A stretch of 32,356 nt of DNA, taken from contig RDXB01000066.1 in NCBI GenBank assembly GCA_004292515.1, forward strand, positions 1 through 32,356. Reading direction: 5' to 3'. The translations under genes and the position numbers were made by a program. This document shows, one piece after another, positions 24,861 to 30,340 of the stretch (positions within the stretch are counted from its first letter, which is position 1; every line of letters begins with the position of its first letter). This DNA comes from Oscillatoriales cyanobacterium (lineage in GTDB: Bacteria; Cyanobacteriota; Cyanobacteriia; CACIAM-69d). A model generated the notes under the pieces. It was given only the letters and a program-made list of their open reading frames with translations. It was not told the DNA's origin and made no database searches.

Positions 24861-24905
24861 GGGTGATCGCCCGTCATGATCCAGTCGTGATGTGATCGCT
24901 GGGGG

Positions 24906-24925
24906 CAAGGGGCTTAAGCCCCTTG
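24906..24925. repeat. Perfect 20-bp palindrome, type copy of a dispersed family
   Basis: CAAGGGGCTTAAGCCCCTTG is its own reverse complement. It lies between the converging chlM and ABC ATPase genes and is followed by GTCTGG then CAAGGGTTTTAG. It could also act as a terminator on both strands. Confidence 0.9.
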
Positions 24926-24938
24926 TCTGGCAAGGGTT

Positions 24939-26213: not shown

Positions 26214-26276
26214 GTTAGGAAGGCGATCGAGCTTGCGATCGGCGCGATCGCTTGGATCGGCATGATCGTGAGGTAG

Positions 26277-26296
26277 CAAGGGGCTTCAGCCCCTTG
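26277..26296. repeat. Palindrome family copy
   Basis: CAAGGGGCTTCAGCCCCTTG differs from the perfect palindrome at 24906 by one base. Like that copy it is followed by GTCT. It lies about 30 bp after the PD-(D/E)XK-like gene. Confidence 0.85.
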
Positions 26297-26324
26297 TCTA
26301 TGATGGTTGGATCGGCAGGCGGAC

Positions 26325-27073: not shown

Positions 27074-28792
27074 ATGCAGCCCGTTGATTACACCACGTTG
27101 GTGGCAAGTTTAAAGGAATTGCGGCGGGACTGGCTGCCCGCGCGACTGGAGCAAGTGTTTCAGCGCGATCGCTTCACGGTCTATCTCTGCTTGCGGACGA
27201 TCGAGCGGCGTGGCTGGCTGGGCATTTCCTGGCATCCCCAGGCGGCCCGATTGTGGGCGGGCGGCGCGCCTCCCAAGGAACCCGACACGTTCACCTTTAG
27301 CCAGCAGTTGTTGCACCAGCTCAAGGGCTTGGCCCTGGTGAACTTCGCGGAAGTTGCGCCCTGGGAACGGGTGGTGGATTTGCAGTTTGCCCAGCGGCCG
27401 GGCGACCCGCCCCTGTGGCATCTGTACGTGGAAATCATGGGCAAGTACAGCAACGCGATCCTGACTACGGCGGATGGCACGATCGTCACGGCGGCCCACC
27501 AGGTCAGCGCCCAACAGTCGCGGGTGCGGCCGATTCAAACGGGCGATCGCTACAGCTTGCCGCCCAAGCTGACGGAGGCCACCCCCAACCCCGAGGAACC
27601 CTTCGATCGCTGGTGGGAGCGGGTGTCGCTAATTCCCGGCGGTCTATCTGAGCAACTGCTGAAAACCCATCGGGGCTTGAGTTCGCCCTTGGTGCGATCG
27701 CTGTTGGTTGCGGCCGAGTTGCCGCCAACGGCCCAGATTCCCGACTTGGATCAACCGGCCCAGCAGCGCTTATTCGTGGCTTGGCAACGGTGGCTAAAAA
27801 CCCTAGAAACGGGAGATTTTGCACCGGGTTGGACGGAAGCGGGCTATAGCGTTTTGGGTTGGCAAGAACAGCGATCAGCCGATTCAGTGCAACAGTTACT
27901 CGATCGCTACTATGGCGATCGGCTTAATCAAGAAACCTTCCAGCGCCTCTGGCAACAATTGCGGCAAAAGGTGGCGAACTTAGCCAATAAACTCCGCAAG
28001 AAAGTGGCGGAGTTTGTCGATCGCCTAGCCCAATCGGCCGATGCAGATTTGATGCGATCGCGCGCCGATTTATTGATGGCCCATTTGCACGAGTGGCAAC
28101 CGGGGATGAGTGCGATCAAGCTGCGGGATTTTGCAACGGGTGAACCGGTCAAAATTCCTCTCGATCCGGCTAAAACCGGTGTGCAAAATGCCCAACAACT
28201 TTATAAGAAATATCAAAAGCTCGATCGATCTCGCAGTGCGATCGAGCCATTATTAACCGCAGCGCGCGAGGAATTAGCCTATTTAGAACAGGTGGAAGAA
28301 GCGCTCAGTGAGTTCGATCGCTACAGCGGCCCCGACGACCTGAGCGCCCTCGAAGAAATCCGCGATGAACTGGTGCAAGAGCGCTATCTCGATGATCCAG
28401 GCTATCGGCGCGCCGCTAGTGATCCGGGCGAAGGATTCCGTAAGTTCAACAGTCCTAGCGGCTACGAAATTTGGATTGGCCGCAACAATGCCCAAAATGA
28501 TCGGCTCTCGTTTCGCCTAGCGACGGCCTACGATTTGTGGTTCCATGCCCAGGAAATTCCCGGCAGCCATCTGCTGTTGCGAATGCCGCCGGGAGCTGTG
28601 CCCGATCGTGCCGATTTGCAATATGCCGCTGATTTGGCCGCCCGCTACAGCCGTGCCCGCCAAGCCGACCAAGTGCCGGTGATTTATACAGAACCACGCC
28701 ACCTCTACAAACCCAAGGGAGCCAAGCCGGGGCTAGTGGTTTACAAACAAGAACGGGTGATTTGGGGCGAACCGAATCGATCGACTTCCTAA
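27074..28792 (+). CDS. rqcH: RqcH/NFACT-family ribosome quality-control protein
   Basis: 572 residues. An NFACT-N domain (starting MQPVDYTTLVASLKELR) leads to a helix-hairpin-helix region and a long coiled-coil (about 270-430, with KVANLANKLRKKVAEFVDRL and EELAYLEQVEEAL). An NFACT-R domain (about 455-560) has SGYEIWIGRNNAQNDRLSFR, DLWFHAQEIPGSHLLLR and a closing YKPKGAKPGLVVY. Relatives bind 50S subunits blocked by peptidyl-tRNA and add C-terminal alanine tails. At the place of the functional Asp-Arg pair of Bacillus RqcH, this protein reads Glu98-Arg99 (PWERVVDLQF). The old annotation is fibronectin-binding protein. Confidence 0.92.
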   Translation: MQPVDYTTLVASLKELRRDWLPARLEQVFQRDRFTVYLCLRTIERRGWLGISWHPQAARLWAGGAPPKEPDTFTFSQQLLHQLKGLALVNFAEVAPWERVVDLQFAQRPGDPPLWHLYVEIMGKYSNAILTTADGTIVTAAHQVSAQQSRVRPIQTGDRYSLPPKLTEATPNPEEPFDRWWERVSLIPGGLSEQLLKTHRGLSSPLVRSLLVAAELPPTAQIPDLDQPAQQRLFVAWQRWLKTLETGDFAPGWTEAGYSVLGWQEQRSADSVQQLLDRYYGDRLNQETFQRLWQQLRQKVANLANKLRKKVAEFVDRLAQSADADLMRSRADLLMAHLHEWQPGMSAIKLRDFATGEPVKIPLDPAKTGVQNAQQLYKKYQKLDRSRSAIEPLLTAAREELAYLEQVEEALSEFDRYSGPDDLSALEEIRDELVQERYLDDPGYRRAASDPGEGFRKFNSPSGYEIWIGRNNAQNDRLSFRLATAYDLWFHAQEIPGSHLLLRMPPGAVPDRADLQYAADLAARYSRARQADQVPVIYTEPRHLYKPKGAKPGLVVYKQERVIWGEPNRSTS

Positions 28793-28870
28793 ACACCCGA
28801 ATTTCAGACCAGAAATCTCCAATCCCTAGGGCCTGCCCTCAAATTCCCAGAACCCTGATTCTGTCCTAGA

Positions 28871-29073
28871 CAAGGGGCTTAGGGTCTGTCGTCATTTCCT
28901 GGGGTCAAGCTGAAACGGTTGATTTCCCATGCCCCAATGGTCGTAACAAGGGGCTTAAGCCCCTGCCCTAAGCCCCTTGCCCCTCACGATCCGCTAACGG
29001 CAGCATCAGGGTCTCAGGGATTTGATGACAGCCCCTAAGCCCCTTGCTACGACAACTGGGGCATAGAAAATCA
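28871..29073. repeat. Large nested inverted-repeat element built from the CAAGGGGCTT family
   Basis: Outer arm 28871-28894 (CAAGGGGCTTAGGGTCTGTC...) is inverted at 29023-29046 with two mismatches. A second pair, 28920-28957 and 29036-29073, is inverted with 33 of 38 matches. Inside, CAAGGGGCTTAAGCCCCT (28947-28964) is followed by TAAGCCCCTTG (28969-28979). The element fills most of the 327-bp gap between rqcH and the converging GNAT-like gene. There is no gene in 28793-29119. Confidence 0.88.
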
Positions 29074-29119
29074 GCTATTTTAGCCTCAATTGATCGAATT
29101 CGATGACATGTTCTAGACC

Positions 29120-30241
29120 CTAAATCGCTTTTTCATAGATGCGATAGGTTTTGTAGATTTTGCCACCGGCCGCTTCAATCAATCGGCGCGATCGGGAATT
29201 GTCTTCATAGACCCAACCCAACTCCGAAGTTCGGTAGGGTTTGCCCTTCTTTTGACAGGCCAATAAACCCAGATAAATCAGTGCTAGGGGCACGAGTTTG
29301 CGTTGATATTCCGGTAGGGCACAAATGGCCACCACTCGTCCCCGATCGATCTGGCGGCGATACCACAAAAACTTCAAGGTTCCCCAAAAATCGAGTTTGC
29401 CATTCACCTGTTTGAGTGGGATGTTGTAGTCTGGCAAGCCCATAAAAAAGCCCACGGCTTTCTCCCCCACTTCCGCAATCAACACCACATCGGGATCGAC
29501 CAACTGCTGGAGCGATCGGGCTTCTTCCACAAACTCTGCTTCGGTGCGCGGTGTTGAACTCCAATTGGCTGCAAAGGCTTCTGTAAAGAGCCGATACAAA
29601 ATGGCGGCATCCCGTTCAAAGGCTTCCCCTTTGGTGTTGATCGAACGGAAAGTTACTCCCGACTTGCCAGCAATTTTGTAGGCTTTTTCAAACTCAGATG
29701 GCAAGGGGCGATCGAGGGGATATTCATAGGCATAGGCATCTTTAGCCTTGCTGAATCCCGCCTGCTCCACCAGTTGGGGATAGTGGGGCAAGTTGTAGGG
29801 CATCATCACCATTGGCGGTGAGTTAAATCCATCCACTAACATCAGGCAATTGTTGTGGGTTGAAAGGTCGATCGGCCCGCGAATTTTCGTCATGCCCTGT
29901 TGCTTTAGCCAGTTGATCGCCGTCGCAAACAAGGCTTCCGAAACCGCCGGATCATTAACCGTTTCAAAATAGCCAAACAGCCCGATCGCCTCCCCTTCTT
30001 TGTCCACCAAGCGCTGATTGACCGTGGCCACAATCCGCCCAACCGGTTCTGGATTTAAGGCCACGAAAGCTTGCAATGTGCCATAGGTGCGGAAGGTATT
30101 TTCGGCTGACAGTTGCCGCGCGATGCTGCTGCGTAGGGGGGGAACCCAGTGAGGATCGCCCTGGTAAACCCGCGCGGGCACATCGAGGAATAGTTCCAGG
30201 TCGGCAGGTTGCTGAACGGGGCGAATCTCAAGGGCGCACAT
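29120..30241 (-). CDS. GNAT-like acyltransferase of unknown substrate
   Basis: 373 residues from ATG 30241 (MCALEIRPVQQPADLELFL). The start resembles the YghO-like group: DVPARVYQGDPHWVPPLR, then VGRIVATVNQRL and GLFGYFETVND. The middle has RGPIDLSTHNNCLMLVDGFNSPP and an MMPYNLPHY segment. The second half looks like a GNAT fold, with VVLIAEVGEKAVGFFMGLPD, RGRVVAICALPEYQRKLVPLALI and ELGWVYEDNSRSRRLIEAAGG. It should use an acyl-CoA donor. The acceptor is not known. The upstream frame to 30313 is unlikely. It converges on rqcH over the repeat element, and cofG ends 100 bp upstream of it in the same direction. Confidence 0.8.
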   Translation of the reverse strand: MCALEIRPVQQPADLELFLDVPARVYQGDPHWVPPLRSSIARQLSAENTFRTYGTLQAFVALNPEPVGRIVATVNQRLVDKEGEAIGLFGYFETVNDPAVSEALFATAINWLKQQGMTKIRGPIDLSTHNNCLMLVDGFNSPPMVMMPYNLPHYPQLVEQAGFSKAKDAYAYEYPLDRPLPSEFEKAYKIAGKSGVTFRSINTKGEAFERDAAILYRLFTEAFAANWSSTPRTEAEFVEEARSLQQLVDPDVVLIAEVGEKAVGFFMGLPDYNIPLKQVNGKLDFWGTLKFLWYRRQIDRGRVVAICALPEYQRKLVPLALIYLGLLACQKKGKPYRTSELGWVYEDNSRSRRLIEAAGGKIYKTYRIYEKAI

Positions 30242-30340
30242 AGGGCAACAGGGGTGAATGGGTAGACGATCTCGCAGGGGGCAATGGCTGAACGTACCAA
30301 CAATTGAACACACCCGGCCGGCGGATCGCCAGGGTTCATT

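Follow-up and report, generated by a model that had tools for sequence, protein, structure and literature searches.

A MITE nested in the central palindrome of an older, oppositely oriented copy between rqcH and a GNAT-like gene of an Oscillatoriales cyanobacterium, and its probable IS5-family derivation

The contig of an Oscillatoriales cyanobacterium analysed here (RDXB01000066.1, positions 1 to 32,356; the window) contains two genes that, from our reading of it, we take to be rqcH and a GNAT-like gene. The gap between their convergent 3' ends is filled by a nested inverted-repeat structure (Table 1). A first-pass annotation of the same DNA had placed this structure at 28871-29073 and had described two overlapping pairs of inverted arms enclosing further copies of one word. 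The structure exists and both pairs were recovered, as were direct repeats of the word CAAGGGGCTTA / TAAGCCCCTTG, but the coordinates were too narrow, the true extent being 28829-29113 with TA directly on either side. Inverted arms were found at 28871-28899 / 29018-29046 (29 nt, 86% complementary), 28909-28957 / 29036-29084 (49 nt, 82%) and 28871-28884 / 28966-28979 (14 nt, 100%). Folding of the RNA, proposed at the time as a check, gave a structure well beyond chance for 28840-29100 (z = -6.7; 0 of 200 shuffles equally stable). No ORF of at least 60 aa extends into the element. A match to an Rfam microRNA hairpin was set aside as chance (47.5 bits, gathering score 150).

Table 1. Positions of the two genes and of the parts of the nested element in the window
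Feature	Position	Strand	Basis
rqcH	27074-28792	+	ORF list
GNAT-like gene	29120-30313	-	ORF list
Left TA, target duplication of outer MITE	28827-28828	.	analogy with the TA pairs beside other E copies
Outer, older E-type MITE, split by inner copy	28829-29113	-	joined flanks, E profile
Outer MITE B arm, partly deleted; terminal repeat GGGCCTGCCCTCA	28829-28870	-	
Left half of outer central palindrome, CAAGGGGCTTA	28871-28881	.	
Inner E-type MITE, 154 bp; ends GGGTCTGTCGTCA / TGATGACAGCCCC	28882-29035	+	E profile; TA on both sides
Inner MITE A arm	28882-28946	+	
Inner MITE central core: two half-palindromes and an 11-nt interruption at 28958-28968	28947-28979	.	
Inner MITE B arm	28980-29035	+	
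Right half of outer palindrome, TAAGCCCCTTG; TA in it duplicates the TA at 28880-28881	29036-29046	.	
Outer MITE A arm, diverged terminal repeat	29047-29113	-	E profile 6-76 at 29108-29036, 39.5 bits
Right TA, target duplication of outer MITE	29114-29115	.	

The window element consists of a 154-bp MITE that entered the central TA of an older MITE and lies in the orientation opposite to it. A profile of the family, referred to as E, was built from 66 other copies with the window locus excluded, and the inner copy matched it over positions 1-142 at 132.3 bits. Removal of the inner copy and one TA in silico resulted in the flanks joining as a second E of opposite orientation, in which the central palindrome of the family (P, CAAGGGGCTTAAGCCCCTTG) was restored. 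The rejoined copy matched profile positions 6-142 on the minus strand at 72.7 bits (E = 1.3e-23), its halves scoring 39.5 and 17.1 bits singly. The 11-nt interruption in the core of the inner copy is perhaps the remnant of a third-level insertion, since other copies have arms truncated right beside P. Two more fragments of E and P were observed in the window, at 24875-24928 and 26262-26310 (36.6 and 27.8 bits with the E profile), the P being exact at 24906-24925 and carrying one mismatch at 26277-26296.

The family unit is about 142 bp long, a class defined from pairs of end matches of which many of those listed are chance pairings of weak matches. It has GGGNNTGTCRTCA at both ends, no ORF and two different arms, A of about 65 nt and B of about 57 nt, around the central 20-bp P. 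Copies outside any P (e.g. L135, L142, L144, L146 and L234) have TA on both sides. The 66 collected copies were restricted to E of 139-145 bp in which P could be recognised, copies of other lengths and truncated ones being excluded, and in this set TA was found on both sides in 48 and was missing on at least one side in 18. Half of a P adjoined 37 copies on both sides, 14 on one side and 15 on neither, the nested share of 37/66 being biased because most source loci had been picked with the half-P pattern. TA was present on both sides in 10 of the 15 copies that had no half-P; a pyrimidine preceded the TA at all 10 of these sites and a purine followed it at 9, a YTAR pattern that the centre of P, CT-TA-AG, fits as well. 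E has the features expected of a MITE, being short and non-coding with terminal inverted repeats, a target-site duplication (with exceptions at two syntenic insertions), multiple dispersed copies, and filled and empty sites. Among the fetched loci, nine distinct contexts had the same 76-nt stretch of A arm and half-P without any difference, and five had the same 68-nt stretch of B arm and half-P, which suggests that E spread fairly recently. Some elements with an E end, at L213, L214, L223 and L266, carried an interior with GTAGGGGCGGG...CCCCGCC, a GTAG-headed palindrome, where P was expected.

The host genome (G000) is a draft of 3.98 Mb in 111 contigs. Its GNAT protein is 84% identical to that of Limnothrix sp. 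CACIAM 69d, and we infer that the host belongs to the genus of that strain; G001 is in the same genus as the host. A search of G000 with 28840-29100 as query returned 159 matches, among which many are a second match to the inverted arms of one copy. The 24-base word CAAGGGGCTTAGGGNYTGTCRTCA, in which half-P is joined to the terminus, was found 97 + 75 = 172 times in G000 at up to three mismatches, compared to 0 for a reversed control. At up to two mismatches it was present in 5 of 30 genomes including the host (G000 136, G001 63, G002 16, G004 5, G003 1), and a related 21-base pattern was present at up to one mismatch in 15 of the 388 genomes of the class, G000 included (G000 134, G001 62, G002 14, G084 10, G004 4 and 1 or 2 in each of the other ten). 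P alone, at up to one mismatch, was counted 357 times in G000, 317 in G001, 135 in G002 and 46 in G004, and 0 times in G003, G005 and the control; in three of the four G004 loci seen it stood without recognisable arms. The E profile gave 66 matches, 16 of them full length, in 394 kb of G000 (three contigs), 21 matches in the corresponding 240 kb of G001, where half-P adjoined 4 of 12 termini, and 3 matches in G002:C11 (145 kb), none with a recognisable terminus. It gave no match in 650,795 bases from 79 GNAT-gene loci of other genomes or in one block-shuffled contig, and 28829-29113 had no match in the plasmid and phage collections. In IMG/VR, exact P was seen in five stretches (L351-L355) of four viral contigs, in which a motif scan gave no E end. 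In more distant cyanobacteria of the class, L274 (G084) and L273 (G232) hold a different short element without P and with similar ends, TAGGGGCTGTCATCAATT ... GATGAC..GCCCTA, the G084 element being judged from the one G084 locus viewed.

Filled and empty sites were compared between G001 and G002, which have long syntenic blocks in common that are mostly about 94% identical. Near 221.8 kb of G001:C24, a single E, preceded by CAAAGGGCTTA and followed by TAAGCCTCTTG, interrupts a P within a MITE of another family, C, and the counterpart of this P near 104.4 kb of G002:C11 is unfilled, CAAAGGTCTTAAGCCTCTTG. At G001:C85 37768 a P is again split by E where G002:C3 345700 has the exact P; the flanks at this site, CAAGGGGCTGA and CAAGTCCCTTG, have GA and CA pairs and the TA duplication is not intact. 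A third E, outside P, is present at G001:C24 178786 with CA instead of TA at its flanks and is absent from G002. The orthologous loci L203/L223 and L204/L212 have an element at the same place in both species with differing interiors, neither site being empty. The rqcH and GNAT genes are on separate contigs in G001 and G002, with another neighbour past each 3' end where viewed, and on that account no empty site was obtainable at the rqcH-GNAT junction. As the two genes are adjacent in the host but divided between contigs in G001 and G002, and a MITE lies where they meet, a repeat-mediated rearrangement at this junction is possible.

An element with a transposase was found in an E-like array of the sister-genus genome G004, where it occupies the middle of a P, between CAAGGGGCTTA and TAAGCCCCTTG. 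This element, L257, spans 862 bp (959-1820), has GGGGGTGTCGTCATTT and GGGGCTGTCGTCAAAA at its ends and contains two overlapping frames that match the NCBIfam model NF033580 for IS5 family transposases (139.9 and 135.4 bits, cut-off 110) as well as PF13340 and PF01609, the transposase thus being of the IS5-type DDE kind. The IS5 family includes IS427- and IS1031-like subgroups. As in that family, L257 has inverted ends and a TA duplication, and the ends of E match those of L257, which on these sequence grounds is likely the autonomous partner of E. Unlike an IS5-family IS, E has no ORF, and it has only about 15 terminal bases in common with L257 and a separate palindromic core. A degenerate relative with TA on both sides was found in G005 (L260), a genome without P. 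PF13340 had no match in the draft contigs of G000 or G001, so the mover may have been lost there or be missing from the drafts. Through DDE_3 (PF13358, as in IS630) and DDE_Tnp_1 (PF01609), 16 transposase loci were found in G000-G002; a few single sites in them resembled an E or C end, but no pair of such ends brackets the gene, and these loci were set aside. A possible 909-bp element with E ends at L157 was discarded on account of its weak match at the right end (2 mismatches).

We consider it very probable that the structure in the window arose by insertion of E, an IS5-family-derived MITE of about 142 bp, exactly at the central TA of the P of an older, oppositely oriented E. From the shared ends and TA we infer that an IS5-type transposase, either that of L257 or a lost relative, would move E in trans. 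The first-pass annotation had called the element MITE-like and possibly mobile, which agrees with the many copies in the host, the related copies in its relatives, the filled and unfilled P at two syntenic sites and the likely transposase-bearing partner in the sister genus; a lack of copies or empty sites elsewhere, which it had said would make this a merely local structure, did not arise. Its proposed history, a palindrome that was inserted and then duplicated in inverted orientation, was a worse account of the locus, where the arms are nested because a complete MITE entered the centre of an older one.

On a rival account, the nested arms would have been built with no transposition, by replication slippage or by recombination between CAAGGGGCTTA halves, leading to local inverted and tandem duplication. 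The half-P words are direct repeats able to pair. At G000:C88, 29045-29419, a unit of B arm and half-P, about 68 bp long, occurs four times in direct succession and represents tandem growth besides insertion. Two B units occur at each of C35, C46, C47 and C82, although same-orientation nesting would produce these as well, and many E copies have one arm truncated adjacent to P. The truncated arms and the four-unit array therefore indicate that slippage or recombination acts too. As the origin of the nested element, duplication without transposition is nevertheless improbable in our judgement, as complete E copies also stand away from palindromes, 10 of 15 such copies being flanked by TA on either side, the two syntenic P sites differ by a single clean E insertion, and the two nested MITEs at the window locus, with their diverged arms and opposite orientation, are unlike a fresh local duplication.

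The preference of E for P was estimated in the 394-kb sample of G000, in which half-P adjoins 21 of 53 recognisable E termini. At up to three mismatches this sample contains 46 P, with 4 falling in crude ORFs; of its 10,191 TA, 3016 are intergenic. About 1.5% of the intergenic TA, those in P, thus took roughly 40% of the termini, a rough share as both ends of an element were counted and old or tandem copies were included. The transposase would favour P for its palindromic form and its YTAR centre (CT-TA-AG), and it may choose this target by sequence or as a cruciform. Insertion into P would fill one P and deliver a new one. As each insertion would consume and supply one P, nesting could go on, and the copies apparently nest since they carry the favoured landing site. 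Dolls within dolls would in this manner form at harmless places, and the window copy probably has no role in the cell other than to provide a strong hairpin between converging genes.

P might also be a repetitive extragenic palindrome of a REP/BIME system, spread by a REP-associated tyrosine (Y1) transposase, as it is short, very abundant (357 copies in G000) and arranged in inverted pairs and clusters. The consensus A arm of E has CGTC four bases before P, and CGTC-tagged REPs are a class described in the part of PMC3733652 available to us. The tags expected at the end of the hairpin are infrequent, however: of 41 copies in the 394-kb sample, 3 have GTAG and 9 have CGTC within 10 nt of P. Matches to PF01797 (Y1) numbered 0 in G004 despite its 46 P, 1 in G000, 5 in G001 and 1 in G002. 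None of the seven Y1 loci in these four genomes has P, and no Y1 gene is flanked by the palindromes; one half-P was seen at the edge of L357 and one E-end-like site at L360. E has, moreover, the terminal inverted repeats and TA duplication of DDE elements. A REP/RAYT origin of P is unlikely on these counts, and we would assign the REP/BIME explanation as a whole very little weight.

Whatever its origin, the nested hairpin could mainly be kept as a putative bidirectional terminator or mRNA 3'-end stabiliser, considering its strong fold and its position between the converging ends of rqcH and GNAT. Based on crude ORF calls in the 394-kb sample, P lies between converging genes in 15 cases, tandem genes in 22 and diverging genes in 5, with 4 in ORFs, the corresponding intergenic bases being 12.8 kb converging, 43.8 kb tandem and 22.9 kb diverging. 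Gaps between converging genes hence hold 15 of the 42 intergenic P while making up 16% of the intergenic bases, an enrichment of P. The depletion of P upstream of genes would be expected as well from selection against harmful insertions or from promoter avoidance. No terminator-like site with a T run, as in an intrinsic terminator, was found in 28700-29250, and presence or absence differs between related species. We regard retention for such a function as unlikely.

E is one of several kinds of element with P as their centre. Family C has the end AGGATGTCTGAAAAG, and the same CTNAG was found on both sides in 5 of its 13 listed copies; its partner is likely L251, an IS5-family element whose second frame is below the NF033580 cut-off. 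Kind D is represented by two copies only, near 68.4 kb of G002:C11 (missing in G001) and near 133.2 kb of G001:C24 (missing in G002). Insertions with ends near TAGACCTCTTG / GGAGGTCTA were also observed at G001:C24 131107-131355 and 194243-194412, both missing in G002. Their ends resemble those, 18 bp long, of a G000 IS (L246), and they are possibly a further MITE family without P. We tentatively suggest, while leaning slightly against it, a self-renewing economy of landing pads, in which one 20-bp palindrome would be the common centre of at least three MITE kinds that differ in their ends (E, C and D), every copy would bring the pad with it, insertion of E would use one pad and supply one, and recombination at the pad would swap arms between families.

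In the open literature, no account was found of a bacterial MITE that carries its own landing palindrome, and the string AAGGGGCTTAAGCCCC was found in no paper. Jiang and Wessler reportedly refer to nested MITEs of maize and rice in the title of a 2001 paper, hosts and transposases there being unrelated to those of E. The accessible part of the Limnothrix genome paper makes no mention of such a repeat (PMC6256058). A close likeness is with IS that target REP palindromes, for which ISPsy8, ISPa11, ISPpu9/10, ISRm22 and ISRm19 are given in the portion of PMC1525189 at hand. According to that portion, these mobile elements also enter a plentiful extragenic palindrome at one set position, ISRm22 and ISPsy8 doing so at the axis of the palindrome or hairpin, where the joined flanks restore the palindrome. 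They are, however, autonomous IS in REPs, whereas with E the inserted unit is mostly a small MITE that bears its own target, so that targets would be renewed and copies nest, and the partner of E is an IS5-family element with TA duplication. In Coxiella burnetii, IS1111 lands in the GTAG palindrome of QMITE2, as stated in the available part of a review (PMC10969869). A MITE palindrome thus serves as an IS landing site there, while with E it is MITEs of the same family that land in each other. The M1/M2 repeats of pithoviruses are TA-inserting and MITE-like according to the part of PMC10664404 available, and are likewise short, clustering and palindromic with a putative TA duplication; a fixed 20-bp central landing palindrome is not described in that part, and hosts and transposases are unrelated. 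Targeting of REP palindromes by IS is accordingly already known, and the design of a target-carrying, self-nesting MITE looks like a novel form of it.

E accounts for many of the hundreds of P copies in Limnothrix-type genomes, and these copies could confuse assembly and terminator annotation. The family makes the target choice of an IS5-family transposase, by sequence or by cruciform, directly testable. It offers a clean example from nature in which a bacterial MITE bears a target favoured by its own family, so that nesting can replace damage to genes. If the landing-pad economy is true, the pad rather than any single MITE would be the unit that persists.
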